NCBI GenBank assembly: GCA_947172415.1
Contig: OX359194.1
Coordinates: forward strand, 2,046,001 to 2,110,000
Direction of reading: 5' to 3'
Origin: Chondrosia reniformis
Lineage: Eukaryota > Porifera > Demospongiae > Chondrillida > Chondrillidae
Length of the DNA: 64,000 nucleotides
The notes under the pieces: model-generated
What the model was told of the DNA's origin: nothing
What the model saw: the letters and a program-made list of their open reading frames with translations, nothing else
Databases searched by the model: none
Part shown: positions 1,573-26,147 of the stretch, in pieces
How positions within the stretch are numbered: the stretch's first letter is position 1
Layout of the letters: each line of letters opens with the position of its first letter
Position numbers and translations under genes: made by a program

Positions 1573-1639
1573 TGGACACACCCTGCAAGCAAATCATTAG
1601 TTGTGATTACTTTGCGATATTGCGGGACTTTCCCTTGAA

Positions 1640-1645: not shown

Positions 1646-1663
1646 TTAAAGATTTGAGTGGAA

Positions 1664-4065: not shown

Positions 4066-7000
4066 TCAAGTGGCTGGTGAGTGATGTTGTTCAATTCTCT
4101 CTTTGATCTCATCATACACAACACCAGAACAGGACACTTCTACTGCTTGTAAAATCATTTCCCAGCTCCTCTCCTTCTTACCAGTTCCATCAGTAAAAGC
4201 AAGCCATCTCTCAACTACACTAGAAAGACAATTCCTGGGGTCACCGCGTTTGTGGAGCTCAATGGCTTCCAAGACAAAGCAGTCCACTCCAAGATGGACT
4301 CCAAAGTGACGCCAAGAGGCTTCTACCTTGTAACCAAGAATTTGCACTACATCAGCTGATCTAACTGCAAAGGAATGGATTAGAGGAAAACCATTACACA
4401 CATCAGTTCAATCATTCATCATACAGTATATTTGTAAGGCACAACTGACTACACAGTAGTAGTGTGGAAAGTATAATATAATTACTCACTGTTAGTAGAT
4501 GGACTTGGCTCGGGAGTAGCTTTTACATCCTTGATTACCGAATATCCAGAAGATAAAGGCTGCAGTGAACACTACAGAACACACAATATACTTTAAAACA
4601 ACAGACAGTGTATCATATTGTCTAGCCTATATACATATTAGATACTAAACCTCTTAGAGTTACATTTTGCATATACTAGTTTACTCATTCACAGTAAACT
4701 TACATTCACAACGGGTTCCGTCCAAAGTCTTGTCTTCACATTTAAGGACATCACGTCCTTGGACAGAGAACACAGAAATGAGCCATGCTTGACTGCAGCT
4801 AAATGAGAGTTGTCTTTACCACACTCGCACAGAAACCCAACCTGGAGATGAACTGCATTCAGAAAGGCTTCACCAAGGAGTGCCTTGCAAGCTGTTTTGA
4901 TACCTTCCTCTAAATCAGTCCTTAATGCTACGCACTCCTCATGAAGTGCTTTGATGCGTGAAGCTGACTCAGCATTCGGTAGAAAGTACTCTTTACAGAA
5001 GAGTGCTGCCTCAATCCTACCAGGTCTCTCTAGCAAGTAAACTTCTAGGTTGTTGCGTGTAAACTTTACTGTCACTTTATCTGAAGCACCTGGACAGGCT
5101 TCATATTTTCCACGATTTACCAAGTAAACTGCCAACTTGCAGAAGATTCCTCTTGGAATGTCGAGCAGGTCTTCTGACAGTGAATGGTCTTTGTAGTCAA
5201 AGGCAAGGCAAAGGTTGTCCACTGCAGAGTCTTGAGGAATCTCAGTGTTTCCAAAAGGCAACACAATTGGCATGAAATACACATCAGGATCTGATCTCAC
5301 TTTGGCAGAGAGACCAAGACTGTGAAGAACTTGTAGGAGCCACTCTGTTGGGACGTCCTCACTCACTCCAACCTCCTCAAAGAGGTTAAGATGGTCATCA
5401 AATCGAATGATACCAGAGGCTTTAAACTTTTTACTTGCAGGACAATGGAGATTGGAGTTATATTCTACTGTAAGTATCTTTGCCAGCTCCTTGTAGAGGA
5501 AGGTTACATCAGTGCAGATCCAGTTCTTCTCTTGTGGAACCTCCTTTAGCTCAAAGTAAGCATAAAGCCCCAACATTTAAAATAGTCCCAGCAATGCCCG
5601 AAACTGCCCATCTGCCCCATCCTGGTCTATACAGTTACATTGACGGCAGAGATTCTTGAAGTCTTCAAAACGGAAAAACTTTTGTGAAATGGAGCTTGTA
5701 AAGGTCTTTAGCAAGAGCCAGGCCAGTGGCATTTTCACCTTGAAGCGCCCCTTGTCTGTTGAGATGAGTGAACGAAGTTTGTTAATGGACTGCTTTTCTT
5801 CACTAGAACAGCTTACACTGCCAGGCAAGCACATTAAATTGTTGATGAGAAAAGCAAAACTTTTATCTGCTTGGACAATGTTCTTGAAGTATGGCTTTGA
5901 AGATAGCCCTTTCATGTGATTTTCAATGTCCTGAAGAATAGTCTCAGAATTGTCTGCTTCCATGATCTTGTCCTTGAATGTGCCAACCATAAAGATTCGG
6001 AAACCTGGAGGTGTGACTCCTTCGGGTAGATGAGGTCTCTTGAAGGACATAGTGTACACACCGGATAGCAGGTACTGCATCATTTCTAGACCACTCTGAG
6101 AGGATGGAACACTTTGAGTGGTTTGGCTGTCTGGACGGTAGGTCACTTCTATTGGTTGTCTGAGGTCCTTGGAAGCATTGAACACATTTATGTATGTGGC
6201 TGGTAGGTTAAGTAAAAATGGCAGAGCATCTTGAAACACAGGCTGACCTCCTGTATCTAGGAGATGAACAAAGGTCTTGTTTTCTAATTCCAACTGTCCT
6301 TTATTGGTATGCTTTACAAATAGCTTGTACTCTTGAACTAGAGAGGAGATAGGGTCTATTGGCTGATTTGATTCATGGACAATGGTGAGATCATCAGGAG
6401 AGATTTGATTTTTCTCTGAAGAATATTTGATTTTTGTAAGAGAAGTAGATTTAGGTGATTGTGGATTTATACTAGCTCGGGACTGCCTATCTGTATGTAA
6501 ATGGGATTGGTCGGTGGAAGCTGGTGGTAGATCTTGAACAGTTGCTGTTGCAGTTGTACCTGTTTGTCTGTCACTGGTTGCTGTGAGTACAGGTAAGGTC
6601 TCTTTTGCATCATATGAAGTGTCTTGAATAGCCTTTCGCACAGATTCTCCCATTTCTGCATCTGTCACTAGCTTCCAAATGGAATCATCTACCAGATATG
6701 TCTCAGAGGTAACTGTCAACACTACCGGTCGCTCAAGTGGTCCTGTGCTTTGTTGGATGATCTTGGATTCATTGTTGGCTAATAAATACTTTAAAGAGGA
6801 CTTGCCCACATACGGGGAACCAATCAGTAAACAGTGGACGAGATTAACAATAACAGATGCTCGCCTCTTTACAGCATTTTCATATTCTTTGAACCATATC
6901 TGAGTAGAGAAAGAAGTCATAAATTGTTATTTCAATAATACCAATTTGCATAAGGCTAAGAACAAGTGCAGCGCATAGTTTACTGCCGATTTTTAAATTG

Positions 7001-7552
7001 TGATTTTCCCCTATTTAAGTACTAATACCTAAACCTACATGAAGACCAACCACAGTATACAACAAGTATATACAGTCCTCCACATCTAGAGAGGGCACTA
7101 TTCACTACTCTTTGACATGTAATAATGACAGTTATGATCAATATCCAAAATAAGTGGATGGGAGAAGCTACGTGATGTTATGGCAAATAATTTAGTAGAT
7201 TAATTTTAGTGTGACTTTTTGAACTGCAGCTGAGCTGTGATACAAGTAGGAAATAATGTCATTGTTGCACTGAAGTAACAAATTTTCAGAAATTTACTAT
7301 TATAAGTGTCCAACAAGAAGGTATTAAGCAAAAACCTGTTTTTGGTACCAAAAGATTTAGAAGAGTATATAATATTGCAATTTTGTCAACTGGAAACTTG
7401 CTAGCAGAGGGCTAATAGAGTGGAAATTAGCACACATTAATTTTGTAGAGATTGTGTTTTACAGCACTGAGTGGCAATGACAAATATTCCTGCAACTTCT
7501 TACTCTATAATTAATGTGTGAATGATGGCACACAAAAATGCCTATATACTAT

Positions 7553-7587
7553 AATCCCATGCTATGGTGTAGGAATAGCATGGGATT
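7553..7587. repeat. Intronic hairpin
   Basis: Perfect 12-base arms (AATCCCATGCTA) around an 11-base loop, in the intron before the Roc exon. It is conserved in unit 2 at 21,417-21,451. Confidence 0.6.
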
Positions 7588-8524
7588 TAAAAATTGAGTC
7601 AAAGTAAATTGAAAAGGCCAGCTTTCTACTTTGTATATTGAATGTGTTTAAGATTAAGTCTGCAAACATCATTACAGTATGCGTAGAGTGTCCTCTCTAG
7701 GCTTAGATGTGTAGATAGATTATAAAGAGACTTACTATGTTTTGGGTAGAGGACAGGTCAACCTTATCAGTGTCCTCTTCCTCCTTAAGCAATGTAGCTG
7801 GTTCATCCTACGTATAACAATACACATATGTATGTACATTACTGTCATTTTAAACAATTAGTGGATAATAAAACTTACATGCTTATTAACAGGAGATTGT
7901 GATAGATATTCCAAAATTTGGAGATGATTCTCCTCTTTAGCTAAATCGAGTGCAGTTTTACCATCCTGGAGACAAATAAAAAACATGTCCTTTCATATCT
8001 AGTCATTAGATTGCTAAAGTTGTTATACACTCTACACACTTTATTAAGTAGAATAAAACTGGAACACATACACTAGAGTAAAATATCTGGATAACTACGT
8101 AATGCAAAGAAAATAAAAATCTCTTAAACAACTGATCAGTATATACAAACAAGCAAACTATACAAATACCTTTGCCAGTAACTATCAGTGGCAGAAGTTA
8201 AAGGAACACCTCAAATCTTGTATTATTACAAAATTTAGGCAGTTCAGCAGTTCAGCAGTTCATATATAGTCCGACAAGAGTTGAATACAGAAGTCATTAA
8301 GCAAGAATCTATTATCAGTAAATTAATTATCTTGTTATTTATCTCATCACTCTCATAATTGGGAATAAAATTCTTATGCTTTATGTAATCGAGTTCCCAC
8401 CTACTTTTGAGAACACACCAACTAAAAGAAACATATATTTGTTGAAAATCTGCCACTTTCAGATGACGATACATTTAAAAATAGCTATAGTTTTGGTACT
8501 TTGTAAGATAGTAATTTTACACTA

Positions 8525-8846
8525 CAGTAGAACCTCACCTATCCGATTCAAACGAGGCCAGACCATTGCCAGATAAGTGAAACTGCCAGATATGTGAATC
8601 ACAATATTCTTAATACATTGTGCACAATATAAACCTTATTAATACAGTGTGCGAGTACTCATTCGCAAGTTGTTCCATCCTTCAGGTGGTCGATTAGTGC
8701 AATTTTATCCTCTAGGGTAAGAACTACTCGCTTTCTTTCCTGAAATTACTCTTCTCACTGCTCAAAGTATCCATTTTGTATCGCCACGAAGACCGGATAA
8801 TTTCAGCAGCTGGTTAATTGGGGTGAGGATAAGTGAGGTTCTACTG
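8525..8846. mobile_element. Pogo/Tigger-like MITE (unit 1)
   Basis: 322 bp bounded by CAGTAGAACCTCAC and its inverse GTGAGGTTCTACTG, flanked by TA on both sides. Terminal sequence and TA target fit the pogo/Tigger branch of Tc1/mariner elements. No coding capacity. It sits in the intron between ankyrin exons 8,938-9,039 and 7,879-7,965. The same insertion is at 22,390-22,721, so it predates the duplication. Confidence 0.8.
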
Positions 8847-8937
8847 TATATACCTAGTTAATAAAACGCTCTAGTTCTAATAATACATACTACAATAACA
8901 ATACTTCTTTGATGGTGCATTAATCCTCCCACCTTAC

Positions 8938-10054
8938 CTTATTCACAGTCTGAGGATCCATTTTGTGTACCACCATCAGATACTTAACTATCTCAAGAGA
9001 ACCTGATTGTGATGCCTTATGTAATGTATTCCATCCACCCTAAAGTAATAGAAATGTCATCATGGTCAATAGAGGAACATGCCTACATCATATGTACTAC
9101 TGTAACTGCTTCTTTGATGGTGTATTAATCCTCCCACCTTACCTCATTCACAGTCTGAGGATCCATTTTACACTCTTCAATGTAGTACTTTACAACAATA
9201 AACTGACCATTATAAGCTGCTATATGTAGTGAATTTGATCCATTCTATATACAAATCAGTGTTCAGAAACACATTTATAATTAAAGTGCAACTATACATT
9301 ACAGGGTTCACTTTGCTAAAGCACATCAGTGCATGTCGTACCTTCTTCACAGTCTTTGGATCCATTTTGTGTACCACCATCAGATACTTAACTATCTCAA
9401 GAGAACCTGATTCTGATGCATTATGTAATGTATTCCATCCATTCTAATATAATAGAAATACCATCATGATCAATAGAGGAACATGCATACATCATATGTA
9501 CTACTGTAACTGCTTCTTTGATGGTGTATTAATCCTCCCACCTTACCTCATTCACAGTCTGAGGATCCATTTTACACTCTTCAATGTAGTACTTTACAAC
9601 AATAAACTGACCATTAGCAGCTGCTATATGTAGTGAATTTGATCCATCCTATATACAAATCAGTATTAAGAAACACATTTATGAATAAAGTGCAACTATA
9701 CACATTACAGGGTTCACTTTGCTAAAGCACATCAGTGCATGTCCTACCTTAATCACAGTCTTTGGATCCATTTTGTGTACCACCATCAGATACTTAACTA
9801 TCTCAAGAGAACCTGATTCTGATGCACAATGTAATGTATTCCATCCATTCTAATGTAATAGAAATACCATCATGATCAATAGAGGAACATGCATACATCA
9901 TATGTACTACTGTAACTGCTTCTTTGATGGTGTATTAATCCTCCCACCTTACCTCATTCACAGTCTGAGGATCCATTTTACACTCTTCAATGTAGTACTT
10001 TACAACAATAAACTGACCATTACCAGCTGCTATATGTAGTGAATTTACTCCATC
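8938..10054 (-). repeat. Array of six ankyrin exons, two alternating types
   Basis: Each exon is 102 nt (34 residues, phase 0) and each exon plus intron is about 205 bp. Type A reads like NGSNSLHIAA with IVVKYYIEECKMDPQTVNE. Type B reads like NGWNTLHNAS with LEIVKYLMVVHKMDPKTV. Order in the transcript is A-B-A-B-A-B. Introns are as similar as exons, so the dimer of about 410 bp is the duplicating unit. A remnant B exon without acceptor lies at about 10,151-10,205. Confidence 0.92.
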
Positions 10055-10865
10055 CTATATACAAATCAGTATTCAGAAACACATTTATAATTAAAGTGCA
10101 ACTACACATTACAGGCTTCACTTTGCTAAAGCACATCAGTGCATGTCGTACCTTCTTCATAGTCTTTGGATCCATTTTATGTACCAATACCAGATACGCA
10201 CATAAATTGGCTCAAAATGTAATACTGTTTATAATTCTCTAATTCTGAAGTATGTAGGACCTTGATACTTGCTTACTCTACTAGTACTTATGATACAGTG
10301 TGATCATTAATATCCAGACAGCTAGTTAAAACATGTTTTTATCATGTGACATCAAAGGGTCACAGAACATCTGTACATACATCTCTGCTGTAATCACAAA
10401 GTCTGTAGGAATGTGATGTTTGCTTACATTAGCCGTATCCAAGGGATCCATACGATACTCAGTTTGCAGACACTTTACTATATCAATGCTACCAGCACCA
10501 GTTGCCCAGTGTAGACAACTCCATCCTCCAGCATCTCTCCATGACAACAGATTAGGATGACTGTGAAGCAGCTGTTTCACTGAAGACACATTTCCAGATT
10601 TTACAGCTTACTTTAGAGCTTCCTGTAGACATGTTAACAAGAAAGAGCATAAACTATTAAGAAAATTGTTTTATTTATTAGTCTATGTGACTCAGTAAAC
10701 AAGTTTTACTAATGTCATAAGATCTGAATGTTAATCTCTCTAAATTTATTATATTTGCATACACTTTATTACATAATATGATTAAATGGTATCTTTATAT
10801 GAGCACAAATTGTATTCAAAGCAGAAAAGGGATGTTTAACCATATAGTAGTACCATATAGACAAA

Positions 10866-11296
10866 CAAGAATATGAAGCTAGAGCGGACATAGCTGTCAG
10901 AAACTTCTGGGGCAATGGACAAAAGGCATTTTTCGATATCAAGGTTTTCAACCCGCATGCCAAGTCCAACCAGAAGTTTGCTTCACCCATCACGAAAGAC
11001 AGAAAAAGAGAGCCTAGCCCAACAAATAATAGAGGTTGAACACGGGTCGTTCACCCCACTCATTTTCCGTACCACAGGTGGTATGGGTCGACTGGCATCC
11101 ATCTTCTATAGCAGATTGGCCTCAAAGCTAGCTGACAAACAGCAATAACCCTATGCATCAACAATGGGCTGGCTAAGATGCCATCTCTCATTCTCACTTC
11201 TAAGGTCATCCATCCTATGCATCCGAGGTTCACGACAAAACTACATCCCTCATTTTCCAACCTCTACTGATCTGGCAGTCAATGAATCTCTTATAT
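10866..11296 (+). mobile_element. Decayed retroelement ORF tail, copy 2
   Basis: Translation gives EYEARADIAVRNFWGNGQ, then AFFDIKVFNPHAKSNQKF, then in another frame EVEHGSFTPLIFRTTGGMGR and a C-terminal LRCHLSFSLLRSS. The layout (acidic FFDIKV strand, later Glu and a GG motif) resembles the C-terminal region of RT ORFs and possibly a PD-(D/E)XK-like nuclease; that last point is inference. It lacks the residues LSSCF present in copy 3 and has stops. It is embedded in the 13-bp minisatellite, remnants of which lie just before it (10,840-10,858) and just after it. Confidence 0.65.
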
Positions 11297-11394
11297 CACT
11301 CTAAACCAGACTTTTTTGTCAACTTATAATCATCATTCCTCTACTACAAACTGGTAAAAATTTATACTACACCAGACTATTTTAGTAGTTACTA

Positions 11395-11528
11395 TCATAT
11401 AGTAGTACAATATAGTAGTACCATATAGTAGTACTATATAGTAGTACCATATAGTAGTACCATATAGTAGTACCATATAGTAGTACCATATAGTAGTACC
11501 ATACAGTAGTACCATACAGTAGTACCAT
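11395..11528. repeat. 13-bp minisatellite (unit 2)
   Basis: Same CCATATAGTAGTA unit as at 391-568, fewer copies. Confidence 0.95.
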
Positions 11529-12511
11529 AATTAAAAAGTGAGTGAGTGGCAGTCAAAATTGTCACTCATAAGTTATTTGTTGTAATGTAAAATATCATAT
11601 ACCTCTGTAGCTTTAGTGACACCACCTCCACCTACTGTAGCTTTACTTCCAGTAGTACCCATTTCAAATCAGATAAGGGACACTGCCTCACACCTAATAA
11701 GGGAATGGCAGAAGTGCACCTGATCACACCATCTGACACATTTCCAAAGTGAGACAGTATGTCTGGAGACAGCCTCCTCTAAGAATAACACTTTATGAAT
11801 ATCATGAATCAGTTTTACTAATATAATTTAGACTATGAATTCAATTAGCAAAAAGAAGAAATCAACCATCCTTCACATTTCTACAGTCTATCCTCTATCT
11901 ACCCATGTGTTATCTGTTCCCTCACTTAGTCAAATGATTGAGTTACAAAGCTTTTACACACAAGTAGTGTAGCAAGCACAATATGACAAAGGTGATAATC
12001 CTCTAAGTTTTCACTTACTGAACTTTAGGAATGGAGTAACAATGAAGTAAAGAGAAAGTCAGGATAAATAACAGAACAATCAGACATTAAATGAACCATA
12101 AGGACTCTAGTGAAGGTGAGAGATTGGCTATATACTCCAAATGGGAGATAATGTTTGAGAGAATGACTTAACTGAATATTGACCTTGCTGTTCACTTACT
12201 TTCTCAGATTTTTGATTTCTTTCTCTAAGACATTCTCAACATCTCTGTTAAACTCATTTCATCCTAACCTGGTTCAGTAGAAGTAGAGACTTCACAAACA
12301 AGAAGATCGAGGAGATTCACCTCTATAAAGAAGTGGGAGTGTACTAAGTACACTGGACCATATATAGACACTGGACACACCCCCTAGATACTCTCTACAA
12401 TGTAGTATAGAGTATTTATGGACTCACCCTACAAGGAAATCATTAGTTGTGATTACTTTGCGATATTACGGGACTTTCCCTTGAACACGTGTGTTAAAGA
12501 TTTGAGTGGAA

Positions 12512-13950
12512 ATGGTGGTCTTTATCTGCAACGCTTGCGGACAGAGTATTAAAAAGAGCAAGGTTGAAAAGCATTTTCAACTTGAATGTGCCAACTGCAA
12601 TGTGCTCTCTTGTATCGACTGTGGAAAAGAGTTTGTTGGAGAAGAATATGCGGGTTAGTTTTATAGATAATTATTTCATGATTGTATATTTTCCCTTTTT
12701 ATGTAATCGCACTTCCCAGATATCCCCAGTGTTAACTGTTGGTTGTGGGTTGACTACTGTGTCCAAGTTTATAACAATTAACAACCTTTGTTGCTGATCT
12801 AACAATAATCCATAAATAAAGGTATCAACTAATTTCTATTGCCACTAGACCCTTCCTCCCATAACAGCCCCTAGTCCCCTGTAGGATGGTCTAGCACACC
12901 AGACTAGGTGATCACTAACAGAGATTTTACTGTATTCTCATGATTTGCATGGTGGGAGGTTTGTTTTGGGGAATGAGTTCTTTGTTGGTCATCTGATTCT
13001 TCTGTTGTCTGTAGTGCATACCTCCTGTATCTCTGAGGGGGAGAAGTACCAAGGGAAGCTGTACAAGGGACCCACTGTGGGCACGCCCACAAAGGGAGTG
13101 AGGAAACAGGAGCAGTAGCTTCAAGTAAGTGTGAAAACTACTATAGTCTTGTGTCTGTACAATCTCCCTTTGTATGCATTCTATTGGGCTCCTTGAAGTA
13201 GCCATTTCCAAATGGAGTGTGTATCAATATTATAGTAATGATTTAATTTTAAAGCTATTGCATCATACCCTAATTAATGTATCAAGAAAGAGGAAGAAAT
13301 TTGAAGTTAATAAAAATGTATTTGTTTTTCATGCTAGTATATGGTAGCCATTTTTAAATGCCATATATAGGGACTGATACAGCTAAGAAAATTGTTACTT
13401 TTGATGATTACCATTTGTGATGTCACTGTCAAATATTTATGTGATTTATGCATGTCATTTATCATTTAATGTGTCTCAATTATGTTAGAATTTTGCAAGA
13501 AATTCTCTTCATGTATTTAATGCTGGAGTGATGGACCAGTTATGGGATACCTTCAGTGAAACTGCCACTTCATGTCATCTCTTATCATCACAAGGTGCAT
13601 TGAGTGACCCATCGGAAGGTACATTGAATAATCCTAAAATGATAAGGAGAAAAACGCTTCCCAAAAGTATGACTCAAATGGTGGCAGTGACCTTGAAGTT
13701 GCTAAGGTGGAAAGTTGCCAATCAGAAAGTGTTGCAACTAACAAAAAGGAAAAAAAGAAAAAAACTAAAGAAAGAAGATGTACCTCTCACAGAAGATTTG
13801 TCTGACCAAGGAGAAACAGTTACTAAACCAAAGAAGAAAAAATCAAAACAAAAGAGCAAAAATGTGTTAGAATCAAGACTAGCAGCGGAATCTGTAGAGT
13901 TACCTAAGGCAGACAGGCTAAGAGAAGAAAGGGACGCAGTTATGGCCTGA
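12512..13950 (+). pseudogene. LYAR: LYAR-like gene, copy 2, exon 3 lost, nonsense codon in exon 2
   Basis: Exon 1 (12,512-12,653) is intact with both zinc-finger cysteine sets. Exon 2 (13,015-13,124) has TAG at 13,116-13,118 where copy 1 has TGG (Trp). A deletion near 13,250 removed the acceptor and the first half of exon 3. The remaining half (about 13,254-13,310) ends in degraded linker sequence. The last exon (13,489-13,950) is open throughout, but only because its middle part is read in a different frame from copy 1 and a later A-rich indel restores the lysine-rich frame. It ends at the same truncated stop as copy 1. Non-functional as a LYAR gene. Confidence 0.85.
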
Positions 13951-14574
13951 AGAAAGAGACAGAGAGCAAGATGGAAAAGGGAAGAAACTAACCAGTTATC
14001 CGAAGACATTTTCCCAGAGCATTCAATAGACCAATGAACCTCACAACAAAAGGAAGAAGAAGAAAAAAGTAAAAAAGTAAACAGAAATACCAGAAGTGCT
14101 AGAACTCACCTTAACAGAGAATGCTCATACACTTCACTTCACTAGTAGACAAGTTATATTCCAATTACTAGATTACTGACTGTTGATCCATCTACACCGC
14201 AAACGAGTCGAATGTCACGTGACATATAATCAGATTCATTCATCTGAAAACATATCAATGCTAGAACACACTCAAAATTTGATCGCATGATCATCGTCAT
14301 TAACTGATCAATATTCACTGACTAATATAACTCATGTACATGTACAGAACAATACATACAATGGTGGTCAATGGTGGTCAATGGTGTAGTATCGGGTGAA
14401 GGGTTAAGGTCTTTGAAGAAGTTAACATTGTGAGATGAACCAACTGTAGACTGATCAGTTGACCAATAAGATCACTAAAGATCTAGTTGCTCTGCTGACT
14501 GTGGAACTGAAATGGAAAGGTTTGGTTAAATCTTCTACCTACAACTAACTAAATGTATCTAATTAGGGCTTACC

Positions 14575-17500
14575 TCAAGTGGCTGGTGAATGATGATGTT
14601 CAATTCTCTCTTTGATCTCATCATACACAACACCAGAACAAGACACTTCTACTGCTTGTAAAATCATTTCCCAGCTCCTCTCCTTCTCACCAGTTCCATC
14701 AGTAAAAGCAAGCCATTTCTCAACTACACTAGAAAGACAATTCTTGGGGTCACCACGTTTGTGGAGCTCAATAGTGTTCAAGACAAAGCTGTCCACTCCA
14801 AGATGGACTCCAAAGTGACGCCAAGAGGCTTCTACCTTGTAACCAAGAATTTGCACTACATCAGCTGATCTAACTACAAAGGAATGGATTAGAGGAAAAC
14901 TATTACACACATCAATTCAATTATTCTTCATATAGCATATTTAAGGCACAACTGACTACACAGTAGTAGTGTGGAGTGTATAATATACGTAATTACTCAC
15001 TGCTAGTAGATAGACTTGACTTGGTAGTGGCTTTTACATCATTGATTACCAAATATCCAGAAGGTAGAGGCTGTAGTGAACACTACAGAACACACAACAT
15101 ACTTTAAAACAACAGACAGTGTATCATATTGTCTAGCCTATATACATATGAGGTACTAAACCTCTTAGAGTTACATTTTGCATATACTAGTTTAGGAGCA
15201 TACTCATTTAACATAATTAAAGGTGTATAAGATGTGACCTGGTAAGATCCTGTCAAACAAACCCTGCAGTAAACTTACATTCACAACTGGTTCCATCCAA
15301 AGTCTTCTCTTCTCATATAAGGGCCTCAAGTCCTCAGACAGAGAACATAGAAATGAGCCACTCTTGACTGCAGCTAAATGAGAGTTGTCCTTGCCACACT
15401 CGCACAGAAACCCAACCTGGAGATGAACTGCATCCAGAAAGGCTTTACCAAGGAGTGCCTTGCAAGATGTTTTAATACCTTCCTCTAAATCAGTCCTTAA
15501 TGATGTGCACTCCTCATGAAGTGCTTTAATGCGTGAAGCTGACTTAGCGTTCGGTAAAAAGTACTCTTTGCAGAAGAGTGCTGCCTCAATCCTACCGGGC
15601 CTCTCTAGCAAGTAAAGTTCTAGGTTGTTGCGTGTAAACTTTACTGTCACTTTATCTGAAGCACCTGGACAGGCTTTATATTTAGGAATACCTCCAGGCT
15701 TCCTATTTATCAAGTAAACTGCCAACTTGCAGAAGATTCCTCTTGGAATGTCCAGCAGGTCCTCTGACAGCGAATGGTCTTTGTAGTCAAAGGCAAAGCA
15801 AAGGTTGTCCACTGCAGAGTCTTGAGGAATCTCAGTGTTTCCAAAAGGCAACACAATTGGCATGAAATACACATCGGGATCTGATCTCACTTTGGCAGAG
15901 AGACCCAGACTGTGAAGGACTTGTAGGAGCCACCCTGTTGGGACGTCCTCACTCACTCCAACCTCCTCAAAGAGGTTAAGATGGTCATCAAATCTAACGA
16001 TACCAGAGGCTTGAAACTTTTTACTTGTAAGACAATGGAGATTGGAGTTAAATTCTACTGTAAGTATCTTTGCCAGCTCCTTGTAGAGGAAGGTTACATC
16101 AGTGCAGATCCAGTTCTTCTCTTGTGGAACCTCCTTTAGCTCAAAGTAAGCATAAAGCCCCAACATGTGAAATAGTCCCAGCAATGCCTGAAACTGCCCA
16201 TCTGCCCCATTCTGGTCTATGCAGTTACATTGACAGCAGAGATTCTTGAAGTCTTCAAAACGGAAAAACTTTTGTGAAATGGAGCTTGTAAAGGTCTTTA
16301 GCAAGAGCCAGGCCAGTGGCATTTTCACCTTGAAGTGCCCCTTGTCTGTTGAGATGAGTGAACGAAGTTTGTTAATGGACTGCTTTTCTTCATTAGAACA
16401 GCTTACACTGCCGGGCAAGCACATTAAATTGTTGATGAGAAAAGCAACACTTTTATCTGCTTGGACAATGTTCTTAAAGTATGGCTTTGAAGATAGCCTT
16501 TTCATGTGATTTTCAATGTCCTGAAGAATAGTTTCAGAATTGTCTGCTTCCATGATCTTGTCCTTGAATGTGCCAACCATAAAGATTCGGAAACCTGGAG
16601 GTGTGACTCCTTCGGGTAGATGAGGTCTCTTGAAGGACATAGTGTACACACTGGATAGCAGGTACTGCATCATTTCTAGACCACTCTGAGAGGATGGAAC
16701 GCTCTGAGTGGTTTGGCTGTCTGGACGGTAGGTCACTTCTATTGGTTGTCTGAGGTCCTTGGAAGCATTGAACACATTTATGTATGTGGCTGGTAGGTTG
16801 AGTAAAAAAGGTAGAGCATCTTGAAACACAGGCTGACCTCCTGTGTCTAGGAGATGAACAAAGGTCTTGTTTTCTAATTCCAACTGTCCTTTGTTGGTAC
16901 GCTTTACAAATAGCTTGTACTCTTGAACTAGAGAGGAGATAGGGTCTATTGGCTGATTTGCTTCATGGACAATGGTGAGATCATCAGGAGAGATTTGATT
17001 TTTCTCTGAAGAATATTTGATTTTTGTAAGAGAAGTAGATTTAGGTGATTGTGGATTTATACTAGCTCGGGATTGCCTATCTGTATGTAAATGGGATTGG
17101 TCGGTGGAAGCTGGTGGTAGATCTTGAACAGTTGCTGTTGCAGTTGTACTTGTTTGTCTGTCACTGGTTACTGTGATTACAGGTAAGGTCTCTTTTGCAT
17201 CATATGCAGTGTCTTGGATAGCCTTTCGCACTGATTCTCCCATTTCTGCATCTGTCACTAGCTTCCAAATGGAATCATCTACCAGATATGTCTCAGAGGT
17301 AACCGTCAACACTTCCGGTCTCTCAAGTGGTCCTGTGCTTTGTTGGATGATCTTGGATTCATTGTTGGCTAATAAACACTTTAAAGAGGACTTGCCCACA
17401 TACGGGGGACCAATCAGTAAACTGTGGACGAGATTAACAATAACAGATGCTCGCCTCTTTACAGCATTTTCATATTCTTTGAACCATATCTGAGTAGAGA

Positions 17501-20500
17501 AAGAAGTCATAAATTGTTATTTCAATAATACCAATTTGCATAAGGCTAAGAACAAGTGCAGCGCGTAGTTTAATGCTGATTTTTAAATTGTGATTTTCCC
17601 CTATTTAAGTACTAATACATAAACCTACATGAAGACCAACCACAGTATACAACAAGTATATACAGTCCTCCACATCTAGAGAGGGCACTATTCACTACTC
17701 TTTGACATGTAATAATGACAGTCATGATCAATATCCAAAATAAGTGGATGGGAGAAGCTACGTGATGTGATGGCAAACAATTTAGTAGATTAATTTTAGT
17801 GTGACTTTTTGAACTGCAGGTGATTGTAGCTGAGCTACGGTACATGTCACAAGAAACTTTACAAAATCCGACGAATTCTGCGGAAATTCCGTGCGGATTC
17901 CGTACGGATTCCACACGGAATCCGCGCAGCTAACCTCGGCGTTACCGTACTATTTCCGCGGAATGTCTGTAGCCTTTCCGCGGAACGTCTCTTGCCTTTC
18001 CGCGGAACGTCTTCCCTGTCCGCGGATTGTCTTTGTCCTTATCCGCGGAACGTTAACGCCTCTGCCGTATTGCGCACAAGGTTTGTACTGGTACGTATCT
18101 GCACACTACGCGGTCTAAGCCAAGCATTTCCACAAACAATAACGTTTAATAACGAGCAACAACGTAATATTAATAATAGTAACTTTACAATAGAACAATC
18201 GTAACAAAGGTTAAAAGTTAACAATTTTCTATTTCTTCTGGAGGCTTTGTCTTGCGGCAGACTTCGTCAATCGCGCACCTCATTTCCTTCTCCGACGTAG
18301 TTGCCGACTCCAGCCGTTGCAGAGGGAAATGCTGCATGCACACAGCGTAGATAGCTTTGATTTTCGGGCCGTTTAAGGCTTTCTTGCCCAGGACTCCTCT
18401 GCAGTTGCTTCCAACACGTTCTCGTGGCGGGAACATCCTGGCTGCAAGCCTTGCAGCCAGGTTTCTACGTGACCTGCAAGCTTGCAGGGCAGAACTGATG
18501 TCTTCTGGTGGGATGCATACGTCTCCTACGTTCATCCGACTCGTAATGTCTTGCAGAGGCATATCATGAGGAGACTCCAGTTGTGTCGGGGGAATTTCTT
18601 GCCAGAAGTAAGGAGGCACTGGTGTCGCCATCTCCATGGGGGGTGCACGCATAGGCGTTTCCTGTAGCAGTGGATACTCGCTTACTGGAGGCTGCAGAGT
18701 GTACACTTTCTCCTCTAATGTCCGAAGACGGCACACCAGTCGGGCTTCAACGCCAGACACCGTGTCTGACAAACTGTCCAACTTCTCTGACAAGCTTTCT
18801 AGCTTCTGCAAGATAGTATAAAACCTATCATCCTGCTGTCCTTCGGGTGCACGCGAATCTGTGGAAGTTGAAGGAGCTGGAGCTGCCAGTTCAAAAGTAA
18901 ACTGTTCTTCAGGCTCATTCCTGGTAGTGGCAGGTGATGCTGGTGCTTGAGCGCCGTTGACATCGATCACTTCAGCGTTGAAGTTTTTCTTTGATTTTCC
19001 CCAAGAGACTACTACCTTCTCCCCAACAACGATCGTCCCTTTTTTGACGGCGCTCTTCCTCACGAGGGACGTCGTTCCCTTGGATTTTCCGTCGCTCCAT
19101 CGTACAAGGATCTTTTCCATCTCTCCAAATGATAACTCACAAAGGCAGTATAATTCGCAAAAGGCAGGAACACGCTGAAAGGTGGGTGAATTACTTATCA
19201 AATTAAGTTGTATTTATACGTACGTGCACACTCGAGGTGCGAGATTATCCGCAGCCAATCAGATAAAAATATTATTTACATTCTGGTCCGCTTAATATTA
19301 AACATTAAATAGACCGAAGTGTAATATTAAAATGTTATCTGATTGGTCGAAATCAACGTGAAAGTATCCTTTATACGTATACGTACGTGCACACTGGAGG
19401 TGCGAGATTATCCCCAGCCAATCAGATATAATATTATTTACATTCTGGTCCGCTTAATTAGACCGAAGTGTAATATTAAAATATTATCTGATTGATCGAA
19501 ATCAACGTGTTTTTTCAGTGTGTGTGTGCCTTTTGCGACTTTGACCATTAAGATGCCTTTGAATGAATATCAAAGAGGAAGAATAGTAGCCCTTTGGACC
19601 CAGTGTGAGGGTAAATGGACATTGGCACAGATGAGAAGAATCCTGGCCTTGGAGGGGATAATCACCACTTCTCCGATGATTAGCAATACAATTTCAAGAT
19701 GGCATTTAACCAAGAGCACAAGAGACTGTCCAAAAAGTGGGCCCCCTGCGAAAGTTCCTGAAAGCCACTCTCGGTGTATCGATGATGCCATGGCAGACAA
19801 TGATGAATTGACTGCTTCAGATCTGAAGGACATACTCATCAAAGAATTTGGAGTGGAGAAAGTCCAATATGGAGAAAGAACCATAGCAAGGATCCGTAAT
19901 GAGCTCGGATGGACATTTACAACAGCGAGATACTGTCAGGCAATTAGGGATGCCAACAAACAGAAGAGGCTTGACTGGTGTACAAAGCTCATCGCTGAGA
20001 AAGAGAAATTTGATGATGTCATTTTCACAGATGAGTCCACTTTCCAATTGGAGTGCCATCGAAGGAAGTGCTTCCGGAAGAAGAATATGCCCAGAAAACT
20101 GAAGTACAAACACAAACACCCACCGAAGATACATGTGTGGGCTGGAATATCGAAGAAAGGTGCCACTCAAATTGTGATGTTTAGCGGGATCATGAATGCC
20201 ACCAGGTACTCGGACATCTTGTCAGCCTCTCTCGTGCCATTCCTGAAAGAGATGTACCCACATGGTCATCGGCTGTACCAGGACAATGATCCTAAGCACA
20301 CAAGCAAATATATTCAGCGTTACTTTGAAGCCAATGGAGTGAACTGGTGGAAGAGTCCAGCAGAGTCCCCAGACCTTAACCCCATAGAATTGGTGTGGGG
20401 GTCGATGAAGAACTTCATCAGAGACAAGCTCAAGCCAAAAAATCTTGGTGAGTTGAAAGAGGGTATCAGAAAGTACTGGTCCACGCTTACCCCTGAAGTA

Positions 20501-23500
20501 TGTACGCGCTACATCGATCACCTGCAGAAGGTGATGCCTGTGGTAGTGCAAGTAGAGGGAGCCCCTTCAGGGCATTAAACTATTTCTTTTTATTGCAGTG
20601 ACTATTCTTGTATTGTTTGTTATTACTTGTACAAGCTTAATTGATTCTAATTGTATTCCAGGTGACACTTGACCTTTTGCGCTGTTAAACAAATATTGCG
20701 CATTAAATAAACATTGGTTGACCACAACTATGCCGTATGTGACACTTGACCTTTAGGGCTGTTAAACACGTTAAGTAACTATCGATCGACTATTCTAGGT
20801 TACCTTTCGACGATTCCACGACTACAGTAGCCCTGCGACGATTTCACGACTACCCTTTGACGATTCCGCGGATGCCCTTTGACGATTTTGACTATTCCTC
20901 GGATGCCTTTTGACGATTCCGCAGATGCCCTTCGACGATTCCGTGGATGCCTTTTGACGATTCCGCAGATGCCCTTCGACGATTCCGCGGGACCCTTGGA
21001 GGAATCTGCGGATATTCTGCGAGGATTCCGCAGAAGAGCCGCGGATTACCTACGCGGCAGATCCGCGGAATTCGTAAAGTTACTTGTGACATGTACCGTA
21101 TGATACAAATAGGAAATAATGTCATTGTAGCACGGAAGTAACAAATTTTCGGAAATTTACTATTATATAAGTGTCCAACAAGAAGGTATTAAGCAAAAAC
21201 CTGTTTTGGTACCAAAAGATTTAGAAGAGTATATAATATTGCAATTTTGTCAACTGGAAACTTGCTAGCAGAGGGCTAATAGAGTTGAAATTAGCACACA
21301 TTAATTTTGTAGAGATTGTGTTTTACAGCACTGAGTGGCAATGACAAATATTCCTGCAACTTCTTACTCTATAATTAATGTGTGAATGATGGCACACAAA
21401 AATGCCTATATAATATAATCCCATGCTATGGTGTAGGAATAGCATGGGATTTAAAAATTGAGTCAAAGTAAATTGAAAAGGCCAGCTTTCTACTTTGTAT
21501 ATTGAATGTGTTTAAGATTAAGTCTGCAAACATCATTACAGTATGCGTAGAGTGTCCTCTCTAGGCTTAGATGTGTAGATAGATTATAAAGAGACTTACT
21601 ATGTTTTGGGTAGAGGACAGGTCAACCTTATCAGTGTCCTCTTCCTCCTTAAACAATGTAGCTGGTTCATCCTACGTATAACAATACACATATGTATGTA
21701 CATTACTGTCATTTTAGACAATTAGTGGATAATAAAACTTACATGCTTATTAACAGGAGATTGTGATAGATATTCCAAAATTTGGAGATGATTCTTCTTT
21801 TTAGCTAAATCGAGTGCAGTTTTACCATCCTGGAGACAAATAAAAAACATGTCCTTTCATATCTAGCCATTAGATTGCTAAAGTTGTTATACACTCTACA
21901 CACTTTATTAAGTAGAATAAATCTGGAACACATACACTAGAGTAAAATATGTGGATAACTAATGCAAAGAAAAGAAAACTTTTAAACAACTGATCAGTAT
22001 ATACAAACAAGCAAACTATACAAATACCTTTGCCAGTAACTATCAGTGGCAGAAGTTAAAGGAACACCTCAAATCTTGTATTATTACAAAATTAGGCAGT
22101 TCAGTAGTTCAGCAGTTCATATATAGTCCGACAAGAGTTGAATACAGAAGTCATTAAGCAAGAATCTATTATCAGTAAATTAATTATCTTGTTATTTATC
22201 TCATCACTCTCATAATTGGGAATAAAATTCTTATGCAATGATTCTTTATGTAATCGAGTTCCCACCTACTTTTGAGAACCCACCAACTAAAAGAAACATA
22301 TATTTGTTGAAAATCTGCCACTTTCAGATGACGATACATTTAAAAATAGCTATAGTTTTGGTACTTTGTAAGATAGTAATTTTACACTACAGTAGAACCT
22401 CACCTATCCGATTCAAACGAGGCCAGATCATTGCCAGATAAGTGAAACCTCCAGATATGTGAATCACAACATTTTTAATACATTGTGCCAATAATAACGT
22501 TTAATACAGTGTGCAAGTACTCATCCGCAAGTTTCTCTTGAGTTGTTCCATCCTTCAGGTGGCCGATTACTGCAATTTTATCCTCTAAAGTAAAAACTAC
22601 TCGCTTTCTTTTTCTGAAATTACTCTTCTCACTGCTCAAAGTAGCCATTTTGTTATCGCCATGAAGACCGGATAATCTCAGCAGCCGGTTAATTGGGGTA
22701 AGGATAAGTGAGGTTCTACTGTATATACGTAGTTAATAAAACGCTCTAGTTCTAATAATACATACTACAATAACTATACTTCTTTGATGGTGCATTAATC
22801 CTCCCACCTTACCTTATTCACAGTCTTTGGATCCATTTTGTGTACCACCACCAGATACTTAACTATCTTAAGAGAACCTGATTGGGATGCATAATGTAAT
22901 GTATTGCATCCATACTAAAGTAATAGAAATACCATCATGATCAATAGAGGAACATGCATACATCATATGTACTACTGTAACTGCTTCTTTGATGGTGCAT
23001 TAATCCTCCCACCTTACCTCATTCACAGTCTGAGGATCCATTTTACACTCTTCAATGTAGTACTTTACAACAAGAAACTGACCATTACCAGCTGCTATAT
23101 GTAGTGAATTTGATCCATTCTATATACAAATCAGTATTCAGAAACACATTTATAATTAAAGTGCAACTATACACATTACAGGGTTCACTTTGCTAAAGCA
23201 CATCAGTGCATATCGTACCTTAATCACAGTCTTTGGATCCATTTTGTGTACCACTATCAGATACTTAACTATCTCAAGAGAACCTGATTGTGATGCATAA
23301 TGTAATGTATTCCATCCATTCTAATATAATAGAAATACCATCATGATCAATAGAGGAACATGCATACATCATACATATGTACTACTGTAACTGCTTCTTT
23401 GATGGTGCATTAATCCTCCCACCTTACCTCATTCACAGTCTGAGGATCCATTTTACACTCTTCAATGTAGTACTTTACAACAATAAACTGACCATTAACA

Positions 23501-26147
23501 GCTGCTATATGTAGTGAATTTGATCCATTCTATATACAAATCAGTATTCAGAAACACATTTATAATTAAAGTGCAACTACACATTACAGGGTTCACTTTG
23601 CTAAAGCACATCAGTGCATGTCGTACCTTAATCACAGTCTTTGGATCCATTTTGTGTACCACCATCAGATACTTAACTATCTCAAGAGAACCTGATTGTG
23701 ATGCATTATTTAATGTATTCCATCCATTCTAATATAATAGAAATACCATCATGATCAATAGAGGAACATGCATACATCATACGTATGTACTACTGTAACT
23801 GCTTCTTTGATGGTGCATTAATCCTCCCACCTTACCTCATTCACAGTCTGAGGATCCATTTTACACTCTTCAATGTAGTATTTTACAACAATAAACTGAC
23901 CATTAACAGCTGCTATATGTAGTGAATTTACTCCATCCTATATACAAATCAGTATTCAGAAACACATTTATAATTAAAGTGCAACTATACACATTACAGG
24001 GTTCACTTTGCTAAAGCACATCAGTGCATGTCGTACCTTAGTCACAGTCTTTGGATCCATTTTGTGTACCACCATCAGATACTTAACTATCTCAAGAGAA
24101 TCTGAATGTGATGCATTATGTAATGTATTCCATCCACCCTAAAGTAATAGAAATGTCATCATGGTCAATAGAGGAACATGCCTACATCATATGTACTACT
24201 GTAACTGCTTCTTTGATGGTGTATTAATCCTCCCACCTTACCTCATTCACAGTCTGAGGATCCATTTTACACTCTTCAATGTAGTACTTTACAACAATAA
24301 ACTGACCATTATAAGCTGCTATATGTAGTGAATTTGATCCATTCTATATACAAATCAGCGTTCAGAAACACATTTATAATTAAAGTGCAACTACACATTA
24401 CAGGGTTCACTTTGCTAAAGCACATCAGTGCATGTCGTACCTTAATCACAGTCTTTGGATCCATTTTGTGTACCACCATCAGATACTTAACTATCTCAAG
24501 AGAACCTGATTGTGATGCACTATGTAATGTATTCCATCCACCCTAAAGTAATAGAAATACCATCATGATCAATAGAGGAACATGCATACATCATATGTAC
24601 TACTGTAACTGCTTCTTTGATGGTGTATTAATCCTCCCACCTTACCTCATTCACAGTCTGAGGATCCATTTTACACTCTTCAATGTAGTACTTTACAACA
24701 ATAAACTGACCATTACCAGCTGCTATATGTAGTGAATTTGATCCATGCTATATACAAATCAGTGTTCAGAAACACATTTATAATTAAAGTGCAACTACAC
24801 ATTACAGGGTTCACTTTGCTAAAGCACATCAGTGCATGTCGTACCTTCTTCATAGTCTTTGGATCCATTTTGTGTACCAACACCAGATACGTACATCAAT
24901 TGGCTCAAAATGTAATACTGTTTATAATTCTCTAATTCTGAAGTATGTAGGACCTTGATACTTGCTTACTCTACTAGTACTTATGATACAGTGTGACCAT
25001 TAATACCCAGACAGCTAGTTAAAACATGCTTACGGTACGCGTCAAAAGTAACGCTTATACTCGCGAGATTCGAGTGCGAGTGCCTCGACGAGGCGAGTGT
25101 TAACGAGTGGCTTTTAGCTCGAGATTTTAGCGAGGGCCAAATCGAGTGCGCACGACAGGCCCTGAAAGCGATAATGGTATAAATACGTAGGTGGCGATTT
25201 TTCGCATCTTTTCTTCGCAAGGTTTTGCTCTGTCGATACTTCTTAAGCAATCGATATATCGCCGAAATCGATACTTCAATTGATTCTTAGCTAATTCTTT
25301 CTTAATTCAGCCATGTATGTTCGGTCGCAAGGACTACGATACGTTGTCTAGCATAAAGAGATAGTGGCGTCACTTGTCTAGTATAAAGAGATAGTCTTGG
25401 CATAGCGGCGTCACTTGTCTAGCATAAAGAGATAGTCTTTGCATAACGGAGTCACTTGTCTAGTATAAAGAGATAGTCTTGGCATAGCGGCGTCACTTGT
25501 CTAGCATAAAGAGATAGTCTTGGCATAGCAGCGTCACTTCTCAAATCTTGAATATCTCACCTAAAAAAGTGTTGCTTTTAGCACTCAATGCGAACGTATT
25601 TTCCCAATGATATTAGATCGAGGTGTAGTCGAGTGATGCTTGAGATGATTTCTTGCCACACCGAGTAATTCGCCCTCATTTCTCAAAATCGTCATCTAAA
25701 CGTGTCGATTTATATCACTTGGTATAATAGTCAATTTACCCCACGATGAGCACCTTTCGAGATCGAGAATTTATCGAGTGATCATTCGAGGTTATCACTC
25801 GTCTCGTCGAGGCACTCGCACTCGAGTCTCGCGAGTATAAGCGTTACTTTTGACGCGTACCGTATATCATTTGACATTAAAGGGTTACAGAACATCTGTA
25901 CATACATCTCTGCTGTAATCACAAAGTCTGTAGGAATGTGATGTTTGCTTACATTAGTAGTATCCAAGGGATCCATATGATACTCAGTTTGCAGACACTT
26001 TACTATATTAGTGCTACCAATACGAGTTGCCCAGTGTAGACAACTCCATCCTCTAGCATCTCTCCATGATATCAGATTAGGATGACTGTGAAGCAGCTGT
26101 TTAACTGAAGACACATTTCCAGATTTTACAGCTTGCTTTAGAGCTTT
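14575..26147 (-). CDS. Ankyrin-Roc-COR-Death protein, copy 2 (open, start exon not found)
   Basis: Exons in transcript order: 25,953-26,147; ten 102-nt ankyrin exons (24,646-24,747, 24,441-24,542, 24,242-24,343, 24,037-24,138, 23,836-23,937, 23,627-23,728, 23,428-23,529, 23,219-23,320, 23,018-23,119, 22,813-22,914); 21,743-21,829; 21,600-21,671; 15,279-17,489; 15,001-15,070; 14,575-14,873. Phases agree and give about 1,317 residues without the start. The 737-residue exon holds GPPYVGKSS (P-loop), a Ser/Thr-rich insert, LLDTGGQP (switch II), GTFKDK in the NKxD position, then a COR-like region. The last exon is a Death domain (ADVVQILGYKVEASWRHFG). The order equals DAPK1 without its kinase, so a signalling scaffold or sensor in death or defence pathways is a fair inference. 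Two transposons lie in introns (17,490-21,599 and 24,748-25,952), leaving the frame open. The upstream acceptor at 26,148 implies an unseen 5' exon. Confidence 0.88.
17838..17862. repeat. Left terminal inverted repeat of the composite element
   Basis: 25 bases that match the inverse of 21,074-21,098 with one mismatch. Preceded by the TA target. Confidence 0.92.
17870..18056. repeat. Left subterminal repeats with TTCCGCGGAA core
   Basis: At least five spaced copies of a CTTTCCGCGGAACGTC-like unit, preceded by palindromic variants around GGATTCCGTACGGATTCC. The core is self-complementary. The cluster lies between the left terminal repeat and the 3' end of the BEN gene. Likely protein-binding sites (transposase or BEN protein); inferred. 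Confidence 0.75.
18218..19120 (-). CDS. BEN-domain protein carried by the transposon
   Basis: 300 residues from the ATG at 19,118-19,120. The frame is open 27 codons further up, but this start directly precedes the folded N-terminus. Residues 3-55 look like an SH3-like chromatin-reader fold (ILVRWSDG, then VVGEKVVVSW and NFNAEVIDV). Residues 60-98 are low complexity and residues 100-143 a predicted coiled coil (LQKLESLSEKLDSLSDTVSG). Residues 219-290 fit a BEN domain (RRNLAARLAARMFPPRERVG, then GKKALNGPKIKAIYAVCMQHFP). BEN domains bind DNA or chromatin and usually repress transcription. The gene is uninterrupted, divergent from the transposase and separated from it by a 432-bp shared promoter region. 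It may bind the element's own repeats, silence it, or shield it from host repression; none is shown by the sequence. The domain call is by recognition. Confidence 0.8.
   Translation of the reverse strand: MEKILVRWSDGKSKGTTSLVRKSAVKKGTIVVGEKVVVSWGKSKKNFNAEVIDVNGAQAPASPATTRNEPEEQFTFELAAPAPSTSTDSRAPEGQQDDRFYTILQKLESLSEKLDSLSDTVSGVEARLVCRLRTLEEKVYTLQPPVSEYPLLQETPMRAPPMEMATPVPPYFWQEIPPTQLESPHDMPLQDITSRMNVGDVCIPPEDISSALQACRSRRNLAARLAARMFPPRERVGSNCRGVLGKKALNGPKIKAIYAVCMQHFPLQRLESATTSEKEMRCAIDEVCRKTKPPEEIENC
19205..19520. promoter_or_regulatory. Bidirectional promoter made of a duplicated palindromic module
   Basis: Two direct copies (about 19,214-19,363 and 19,380-19,509) begin ACGTACGTGCACACT and share GGTGCGAGATTATCC, CAGCCAATCAGATA and TTACATTCTGGTCCGCTTAA. 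Within each copy the CCAATCAGATA end is complementary to the TATCTGATTGG end and the middle also folds back, so each module is an imperfect palindrome with a CCAAT box at both ends. Placement between divergent genes suggests shared control of BEN protein and transposase. Confidence 0.65.
19553..20578 (+). CDS. Tc1/mariner DD34E transposase, intact
   Basis: 341 residues from MPLNEYQRG, the usual length for Tc1-type transposases. The frame is open 11 codons upstream, but this start fits the family. N-terminal helix-turn-helix region (about residues 5-125) with TLAQMRRILALEG and TISRW. The catalytic triad is present: D160 (FTDES), D244 (QDNDPKHTS) and E279 (SPDLNPIELVW), with 34 residues between the last two. 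HVWAGIS and related family motifs are also in place. No stop or frameshift, so the enzyme may be active. It catalyses cut-and-paste transposition into TA. AT-rich 3' flank without further genes until the right subterminal repeats. Confidence 0.96.
   Translation: MPLNEYQRGRIVALWTQCEGKWTLAQMRRILALEGIITTSPMISNTISRWHLTKSTRDCPKSGPPAKVPESHSRCIDDAMADNDELTASDLKDILIKEFGVEKVQYGERTIARIRNELGWTFTTARYCQAIRDANKQKRLDWCTKLIAEKEKFDDVIFTDESTFQLECHRRKCFRKKNMPRKLKYKHKHPPKIHVWAGISKKGATQIVMFSGIMNATRYSDILSASLVPFLKEMYPHGHRLYQDNDPKHTSKYIQRYFEANGVNWWKSPAESPDLNPIELVWGSMKNFIRDKLKPKNLGELKEGIRKYWSTLTPEVCTRYIDHLQKVMPVVVQVEGAPSGH
20810..21080. repeat. Right subterminal repeats, GACGATTCCGCGGATGCCCT unit
   Basis: About eight to ten variant copies of a 20-22 base unit with GACGATTCCGCGG. 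They are in opposite orientation to the left cluster (17,870-18,056), where the unit reads CCGCGGAACGTC, so the clusters form inverted subterminal arrays sharing a TTCCGCGGAA-like core. Confidence 0.8.
21074..21098. repeat. Right terminal inverted repeat of the composite element
   Basis: Inverse of 17,838-17,862 with one mismatch; followed by TA. Confidence 0.92.
22390..22721. mobile_element. Pogo/Tigger-like MITE (unit 2)
   Basis: Same element and same intron as 8,525-8,846, about 10 bases longer. TA-flanked with CAGTAGAACCTCAC ends. Confidence 0.8.
22813..24747 (-). repeat. Array of ten ankyrin exons, two alternating types
   Basis: Five A-B pairs of 102-nt exons, against three pairs in unit 1. 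The terminal B exon (22,813-22,914) is the most divergent (YGCNTLHYAS). One B exon (23,627-23,728) has TLNN instead of TLHN. A remnant exon at about 24,843-24,900 again lacks its acceptor. Confidence 0.92.
25033..25862. mobile_element. 830-bp non-autonomous TA-inserted element
   Basis: Terminal inverted repeats of about 65 bases with very few mismatches, beginning CGGTACGCGTCAAAAGTAAC, flanked by TA. It is absent from unit 1 (compare 10,325-10,340). No coding frame. The first 20 bases match the composite element's terminus at 17 positions, so the composite's transposase, or a relative, may mobilise it. CpG-rich, like the composite element. Confidence 0.9.
25345..25536. repeat. 41-bp tandem repeat inside the 830-bp element
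   Basis: About four full copies plus a partial one of a unit containing GTCTAGCATAAAGAGATAGT and CTTGGCATAGCGGCGTCACT. Confidence 0.9.

Follow-up and report, generated by a model that had tools for sequence, protein, structure and literature searches.

We analyzed a 64,000-nucleotide stretch of the genome of the sponge Chondrosia reniformis (contig OX359194.1, positions 2,046,001 to 2,110,000; hereafter the window), in which a TA-flanked Tc1/mariner element spans positions 17838–21098 and carries two uninterrupted open reading frames (ORFs), one for a DD34E transposase (341 aa) and one for a BEN-domain protein (300 aa), transcribed divergently. Tc1/mariner elements are very widespread and much used as tools; they typically encode a transposase alone and are taken to need nothing else. 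Here, one pair of ends encloses a BEN gene and a transposase gene that form a single mobile unit, show constraint in the pooled comparison of close copies, and have diverged in parallel. The terminal inverted repeats of the window element are 35 nt long and 91% complementary, with TA at the outer end of each, so an earlier note on this DNA, which had described two uninterrupted genes between matching TA-flanked ends, was correct. A further inverted repeat of 29 nt (19152–19180 and 19513–19541) adjoins both start codons.

The transposase matched DDE_3 (E = 2.6e-20) and, weakly and below the cut-off, the helix-turn-helix (HTH) families HTH_32 and HTH_33. A profile built from 30 relatives matched Sleeping Beauty (E = 1.6e-34) and Mos1 (E = 8.8e-10), and the D-to-E stretch aligned without gaps with that of Sleeping Beauty, the 34 residues between D and E (counted by eye) giving DD34E-type spacing. 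The element thus has the TA duplication, the terminal inverted repeats and the HTH plus DDE transposase with DD34E spacing by which Tc1/mariner elements are recognized. It lacks a usual but nondefining trait, the transposase as sole gene, since BEN adjoins 47 of 57 long transposase loci in this genome (see below). The BEN protein matched Pfam BEN weakly (19.2 bits, under the 23.2 cut-off; E = 1.5e-3); a profile of 24 BEN relatives matched BEND3 in the PDB (E = 1e-6), and the fold agrees with BEN, so that fold and sequence together place it among BEN-domain proteins. Its layout comprises a putative Tudor-like barrel (residues 1–57), a long helix (96–142) that is probably a coiled coil, and the BEN domain (~200–292).

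The insertion can be read against an earlier duplicated unit in the same window. The 800 bases on either side of the element were 97.3% and 98.3% identical to positions 6445–7233 and 7238–8036, respectively, at a junction that reads CTGAGC-TG-TGATACAA in the empty copy and CTGAGC-TA[element]TA-TGATACAA in the occupied one; the empty copy thus has TG (7236–7237) in place of the target TA. The occupied left flank has 10 additional bases immediately ahead of CTGAGC. Flanks and junction match the empty duplicated unit, so the element inserted whole, and the earlier note was right to take the duplicate for the empty site. The element sits upstream of an uninterrupted 768-aa ORF on the minus strand (15204–17510) with weak matches to COR-A and Roc, below the cut-off; the first part of this ORF and the element flanks are what is duplicated at 6445–8036.

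Table 1 Features of the two-gene element and its empty site, in window coordinates
Feature	Position	Strand	Basis
Left terminal inverted repeat, including TA target duplication (17836–17837)	17836..17870	+	Inverted-repeat comparison and copy ends
Left subterminal array	17877..18049	.	7 TCCGCGGA sites
BEN gene, 300 aa, uninterrupted ORF	18218..19120	-	ORF, profile, fold
Intergenic stretch between both start codons	19121..19552	.	Presumed two-way promoter (inferred)
Tc1/mariner transposase, 341 aa, HTH + DDE	19553..20578	+	ORF, profile matches
Right subterminal array	20865..21069	.	10 TCCGCGGA sites
Right terminal inverted repeat, including TA target duplication (21099–21100)	21066..21100	-	Inverted-repeat comparison and copy ends
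Empty target site in earlier duplicated unit	7230..7245	+	TG at 7236–7237 vs TA when occupied

We searched the host genome assembly (G000; 117.4 Mb in 15 contigs, C1 onward), which returned 121 matches for the transposase, 71 for BEN and 19 for Pfam BEN; the fetched loci were merged into 57 stretches and annotated by iterated profiles. Of the 57 transposase loci that are 800 bp or longer, 47 had BEN-coding DNA within 3 kb (33 convergent, 12 divergent, 2 tandem; 10 with none), as did 78 of all 110 transposase loci (58 convergent, 17 divergent, 3 tandem), whereas 1000 trials of random placement gave a mean of 0.95 and a maximum of 6 for the latter count. In the other direction, 77 of 116 BEN loci had a transposase within 3 kb. 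The BEN rows used were 40 of 71 from the BEN search, 17 of 19 from Pfam BEN, and 41 of 45, 20 of 39 and 10 of 43 from three added queries, N-terminal-only rows of the BEN search and rows already counted being dropped; an earlier count, made with a smaller set of BEN queries and within 2 kb, had been 36 of 110, and the three added queries and the 3-kb limit brought it to 78. Among loci L001–L030, 29 of 30 transposase loci had a BEN ORF in the fetched DNA, the exception (L012) being badly decayed. As a control based on DDE_3, BEN was nearby for 63 of 79 loci inside the family vs 1 of 15 outside it, with BEN queries that came from the family. Of the Pfam BEN matches, 17 of 19 adjoin a transposase or its remains, and a host BEN gene free of a transposon link was hardly seen, although intron-split genes could escape detection.

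Several copies preserve both genes between shared ends. In the window subfamily, both ORFs are uninterrupted at C6:3614673–3618077; at C7:2418686–2421835 and C10:2408469–2411816 the ends are the same and the transposase is uninterrupted, with BEN in pieces. A decayed copy at C12:2292489–2295270 also has both genes between these ends, with the transposase in pieces and BEN lacking a start. Two-gene units between shared ends also occur in other subfamilies on C1, C3, C10, C11 and C12; in one of these, three copies (C1, C3 and C10:1545157) have both ORFs uninterrupted. Convergent units at C10:1093342–1096119 and C13:2607393–2610400 are likewise enclosed, with both genes, by TA-flanked repeats. 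When the window copy was compared with the C6, C7 and C10:2408469 copies, homology ended at or within ~10 bases of the inverted repeats and the flanks differed; the pairs examined for this limit were locus 28 against 30, 32 and 46, and loci 0, 20 and 45 against one another. The inverted repeats of the copies begin TACGGT or TACAGT, and TA was also read at the outer ends of the other copies with both terminal repeats listed. The co-occurrence of BEN and transposase in multiple copies, which the earlier note had proposed to look for, is thus seen both in the count of 47 of 57 long loci and in units sharing ends.

Allowing up to two mismatches, the genome has 231 places that match the end 18-mer, compared with 10 for a reversed control. 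Among 100 of these places listed, at least 27 facing pairs lie no more than 6 kb apart, and at least 23 of them, 295–1608 bp in length, are short derivatives with the same ends. One locus of the C1/C3/C10 subfamily (L085) has been shortened by deletion to ~1.09 kb, its ends still enclosing the 5′ portion of each gene, and ~12 near-identical, N-terminal-only BEN matches elsewhere look like deletion derivatives of this type. Two 295-bp derivatives with the same ends (C5:8012928–8013222 and C5:8053019–8053313) are 40 kb apart, each with a further end ~2.9 kb on, which suggests that a segment was duplicated. A large part of the DNA between the two starts in the C1/C3/C10 subfamily forms one imperfect palindrome (C3:7166830–7167311): 387 alignment columns at 82% self-complementarity in the C3 copy, and 240 columns at 87% in one C10 copy.

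The genome holds two layouts, the divergent one of the window element and a larger convergent group. The divergent layout that the earlier note described is thus only one of two. In an unrooted transposase tree of 34 sequences from the genome and 23 database proteins (drawn from the best 120 of 1016 relatives), one branch (support 100/98) separated 24 convergent from 10 divergent elements, and all 23 database proteins fell on the divergent side. All convergent elements lie beyond this single branch; one rearrangement therefore suffices. Across 18 families (one representative each), pairwise distances of the transposase and of the BEN domain were strongly correlated (Mantel r = 0.863, reached in 0 of 9999 permutations), as they were in the 14 convergent families alone (r = 0.901), and mean identity was 27% for the BEN domain vs 48% for the transposase.

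Close copies indicated constraint on both genes. Over whole ORFs of eight close-copy pairs, taken from stop to stop and hence with short upstream stretches included, pooled dN/dS came to 0.57 (P = 0.011) in the BEN gene and 0.475 (P = 0.0009) in the transposase gene. Values of individual pairs vary widely: pair 11–42 exceeds 1 in both genes, and several BEN pairs have no silent change. Restricted to the profile-matched part, dN/dS was 0.43 for BEN and 0.45 for the transposase, the BEN value being distorted by pair 13–16, which has 26 silent and 24 other changes in that part vs 6 and 2; we think that an internal repeat was aligned out of register. Because of this distortion we rely on the weaker 0.57 for BEN. 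The selection that the earlier note had proposed to look for in the BEN gene across copies is therefore detectable in the pooled data.

Relatives elsewhere were sought in a protein collection, which gave 1016 for the transposase and 76 for the BEN profile. Contigs of 3334, 9804, 470110 and 1105668 bases were common to the best 120 of the 1016 transposase rows and the 76 BEN rows; because these four sizes recur in both lists, transposase and BEN appear to share contigs outside the set of this assembly, with proximity forced only on the contigs of 3334 and 9804, and some of the contigs may belong to another assembly of the same species. Outside this assembly, no relatives with DNA context were found in a viral contig collection (searched with the transposase, BEN and the transposase alignment) or in genome contigs (searched with the BEN alignment). 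One locus of the host genome joins the two partners in one protein: an uninterrupted ORF on the minus strand (L059:1327–2688 = C3:8964306–8965667) links a transposase-type HTH to BEN. Its N-terminus matched the transposase HTH in a profile from which it had been left out (E = 1.7e-5, 26.0 bits; best of 500 shuffles, 6.7), and its C-terminus is a BEN domain 43% identical to that of the window over 91 residues. Neither a second full-length match in the genome nor flanking repeats were found when looked for, and seven database proteins match the fusion, six of them at 59–64% identity over the full length. The fusion is likely a domesticated gene, and its conservation supports the idea that both partners act on the same DNA.

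The ends of the window element contain 17 sites within one mismatch of the palindrome TCCGCGGA, mostly 20–23 bp apart (~22 bp). Five of the seven sites in the left array are exact and four of its six gaps measure 20–23 bp; in the right array two of 10 sites are exact and six of nine gaps measure 21–22 bp, the last site extending into the inverted repeat. Within the window, every exact or one-mismatch match to TTCCGCGGAW falls in the element ends, and the two subterminal stretches have 16 near-TCCGCGGA sites vs at most 5 for the best palindrome in 60 dinucleotide shuffles. The related C11 subfamily has the same palindrome at 8 sites, and other subfamilies have different palindromes. Compared with pieces of real window DNA, the palindrome excess was significant in the window element (P = 0.025), weaker in the other ten families (P = 0.05–0.52), and significant when combined over families (P = 0.0023); three of the 11 families entered the end tests with one side only and some others with approximate limits, the outer ends of several convergent families being unreached. 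A helical-phase rule for the arrays was dropped, since the spacing was not above controls.

These ends are also rich in CpG. In the window element, the observed/expected (o/e) CpG ratio was 1.83 in the left subterminal stretch, 1.44 in the right and 1.42 in the intergenic stretch. In the surrounding DNA (1–17834 and 21101–64000) it was 0.24 and 0.37, with TpG/CpA at 1.27 and 1.22, a CpG depletion and TpG/CpA excess that point to heavy methylation of CpG in the germline. In the right array, a number of variant sites have TpG or CpA where the palindrome has CpG, the pattern that methylation would leave. Over 11 families, mean CpG o/e was 1.62 in the ends, as against 0.61 for the transposase ORF, 0.44 for the BEN ORF and, in the nine families with flanks available, 0.42 for the flanks, and the ends exceeded the transposase ORF in 11 of 11 (P = 0.0005); four short derivatives had values of 1.01–1.66. 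Three BEN-less DDE_3 loci, with ends mostly undefined, also had some CpG-rich 300-base windows (up to 1.1–1.5), which weakens the case for CpG-rich ends as a mark specific to BEN elements.

By sequence profile, the nearest structurally known BEN proteins are BEND3 and BANP, to which the BEN domain of the window protein is ~22–29% identical. According to PMC11472053, BANP is a coiled-coil and BEN protein whose BEN domains engage palindromic CGCG in head-to-head pairs; as an oligomer it binds CGCG only if this is unmethylated, both BANP and BEND3 select unmethylated CGCG, and the base-reading residues of BANP are Arg316, in the last helix, and Ser313. The BANP motif IDSKCR corresponds to IDEVCR (Arg289) in the window protein, conserved at 90% or more in the 24-row BEN alignment, and in our reading of this shared motif Arg289 would be the equivalent of Arg316; Ser313 has no match. 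The same alignment contains near-invariant residues. In some diverged convergent BEN domains the arginine position is taken by Lys or Gln, and the ends of these elements carry other palindromes.

Binding to the ends is the best supported of the functions that the earlier note had proposed for the BEN protein (control of transposition, counteraction of silencing and subterminal binding). The element represents a two-gene lineage of the Tc1/mariner superfamily in which BEN is probably an accessory end-binding factor that assists the transposase. The BEN protein would oligomerize through its long helix, and the oligomers would coat the short palindromes in both subterminal regions (CGCG-centred in the window subfamily) and help the transposase to recognize, pair or reach the ends, cleavage at the terminal repeats being left to the transposase; a further contact, with histones or DNA, may come from the Tudor-like N-terminus. 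We take PIF/Harbinger as a working model, since a separate Myb-like protein there recruits the transposase to the ends. Because the related BANP, when oligomeric, binds only unmethylated sites, BEN may in addition make transposition or expression dependent on ends free of methylation. We put forward only tentatively that the element is a methylation-sensing transposon, whose oligomeric BEN reads unmethylated CGCG palindromes arrayed in both ends and either licenses excision or expression only while the ends lack methylation or keeps them unmethylated, at least one host gene (the HTH–BEN fusion) having been domesticated from this lineage. If this were true, one would have to ask whether BEN chromatin genes of animals are in some cases of transposon origin.

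Other roles for BEN have to be weighed against that of an end-binding assistant. BEN might stay outside the cutting complex and serve as an anti-silencing chromatin tool that keeps the CpG-rich ends and promoter unmethylated and open for expression. The CpG-rich ends and intergenic stretch amid depleted DNA, a contrast in which the 11 families agree, would fit such a role, as would the CpG richness of the short derivatives, the Tudor-like N-terminus and the preference of BANP and BEND3 for unmethylated CGCG; yet BEN-less relatives also have some CpG-rich stretches, and the ends of convergent copies are CpG-rich too, even though that layout leaves the two starts no common intergenic promoter, so we judge it rather unlikely. 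The same convergent group, which retains BEN without a shared start region, counts against a self-repressor that controls copy number by binding the shared promoter and the ends and lowering transposase expression or end pairing. BEN proteins often repress, and the divergent starts do share one intergenic stretch with symmetrical repeats, but selection on single copies would hardly maintain a pure self-repressor, which makes this explanation improbable.

That BEN is a passenger, acquired from the host in a single capture and since transported with the element, is very improbable. Host-gene capture by DNA transposons is known, and some close pairs have no excess of silent change; a passenger is nevertheless hard to reconcile with two arrangements, with 18 families that still have both genes at 48% mean transposase identity, or with pooled dN/dS below 1, codivergence and the near-invariant BEN residues. 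Finally, a host gene caught by chance between two separate insertions, the case that the earlier note had named as fatal to its view, is refuted by the empty site, the repeated units with shared ends and the genome-wide linkage: the BEN gene belongs inside one element.

The window family shares with Tc1/mariner elements such as Sleeping Beauty and Mos1 the TA target, short inverted repeats, an HTH and DD34E transposase and short derivatives, and differs from them in its second, conserved BEN gene and its subterminal palindrome arrays. In En/Spm (CACTA) elements, the accessory protein TnpA, like similar binders of subterminal repeats, is considered to work via repeats internal to the two ends, but accessory protein and transposase are of families unrelated to those of the window element. 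Unlike the host chromatin proteins BANP and BEND3, which bind CGCG, the window BEN protein is encoded by a transposon and adds a Tudor-like barrel. The likeness to PIF/Harbinger is one of organization only: according to PMC9179366, the Harbinger Myb-like protein interacts with the transposase as well as binding the terminal repeats, and both systems are two-gene transposons whose separate DNA-binding protein is less conserved than the transposase and codiverges with it. The window element has BEN in place of Myb/SANT and Tc1-type, TA-targeting ends, and with neither a Harbinger transposase nor a Myb/SANT-like protein it falls outside PIF/Harbinger.

The earlier note knew of no family with this pairing, and among the papers listed by full-text searches, which did not extend to Repbase, Dfam, preprints and most subscription papers, none described BEN with Tc1/mariner. 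Literature joining BEN domain and transposase included none on such an element, as far as titles and the starts of abstracts tell, and the full-text search found none joining BEN domain and Amphimedon. A transposase with a separate end-binding protein is a kind already known from Harbinger, and superfamilies other than Tc1/mariner are known to include two-gene DNA transposons with a DNA-binding partner of their own; BEN with Tc1/mariner, in two layouts, was not described in anything we found. BEN has stayed with this lineage although the gene order changed and the families diverged deeply, so the reason for its retention is directly testable. The lineage provides a testable example of a transposon that may use a second protein to recognize or shield its ends, and a natural setting where the targets of a CpG-binding chromatin module and of a transposase may coincide, at ends that lie within CpG-depleted DNA; the HTH–BEN fusion ORF points to one way in which BEN chromatin proteins can come about.

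Two further repeat features lie downstream of the element in the window. A 336-bp TA-flanked inverted-repeat element (22388–22723) encodes ...FRKRKRVVFTLEDKIAVIGHLKDGTTQEKLADEYLH... on its minus strand, a peptide that resembles the N-terminal HTH of a pogo/Tigger transposase. It is followed at 22764–24891 by two interleaved families of five direct repeats with a period of 404–410 bp, the copies being 75–98% alike.

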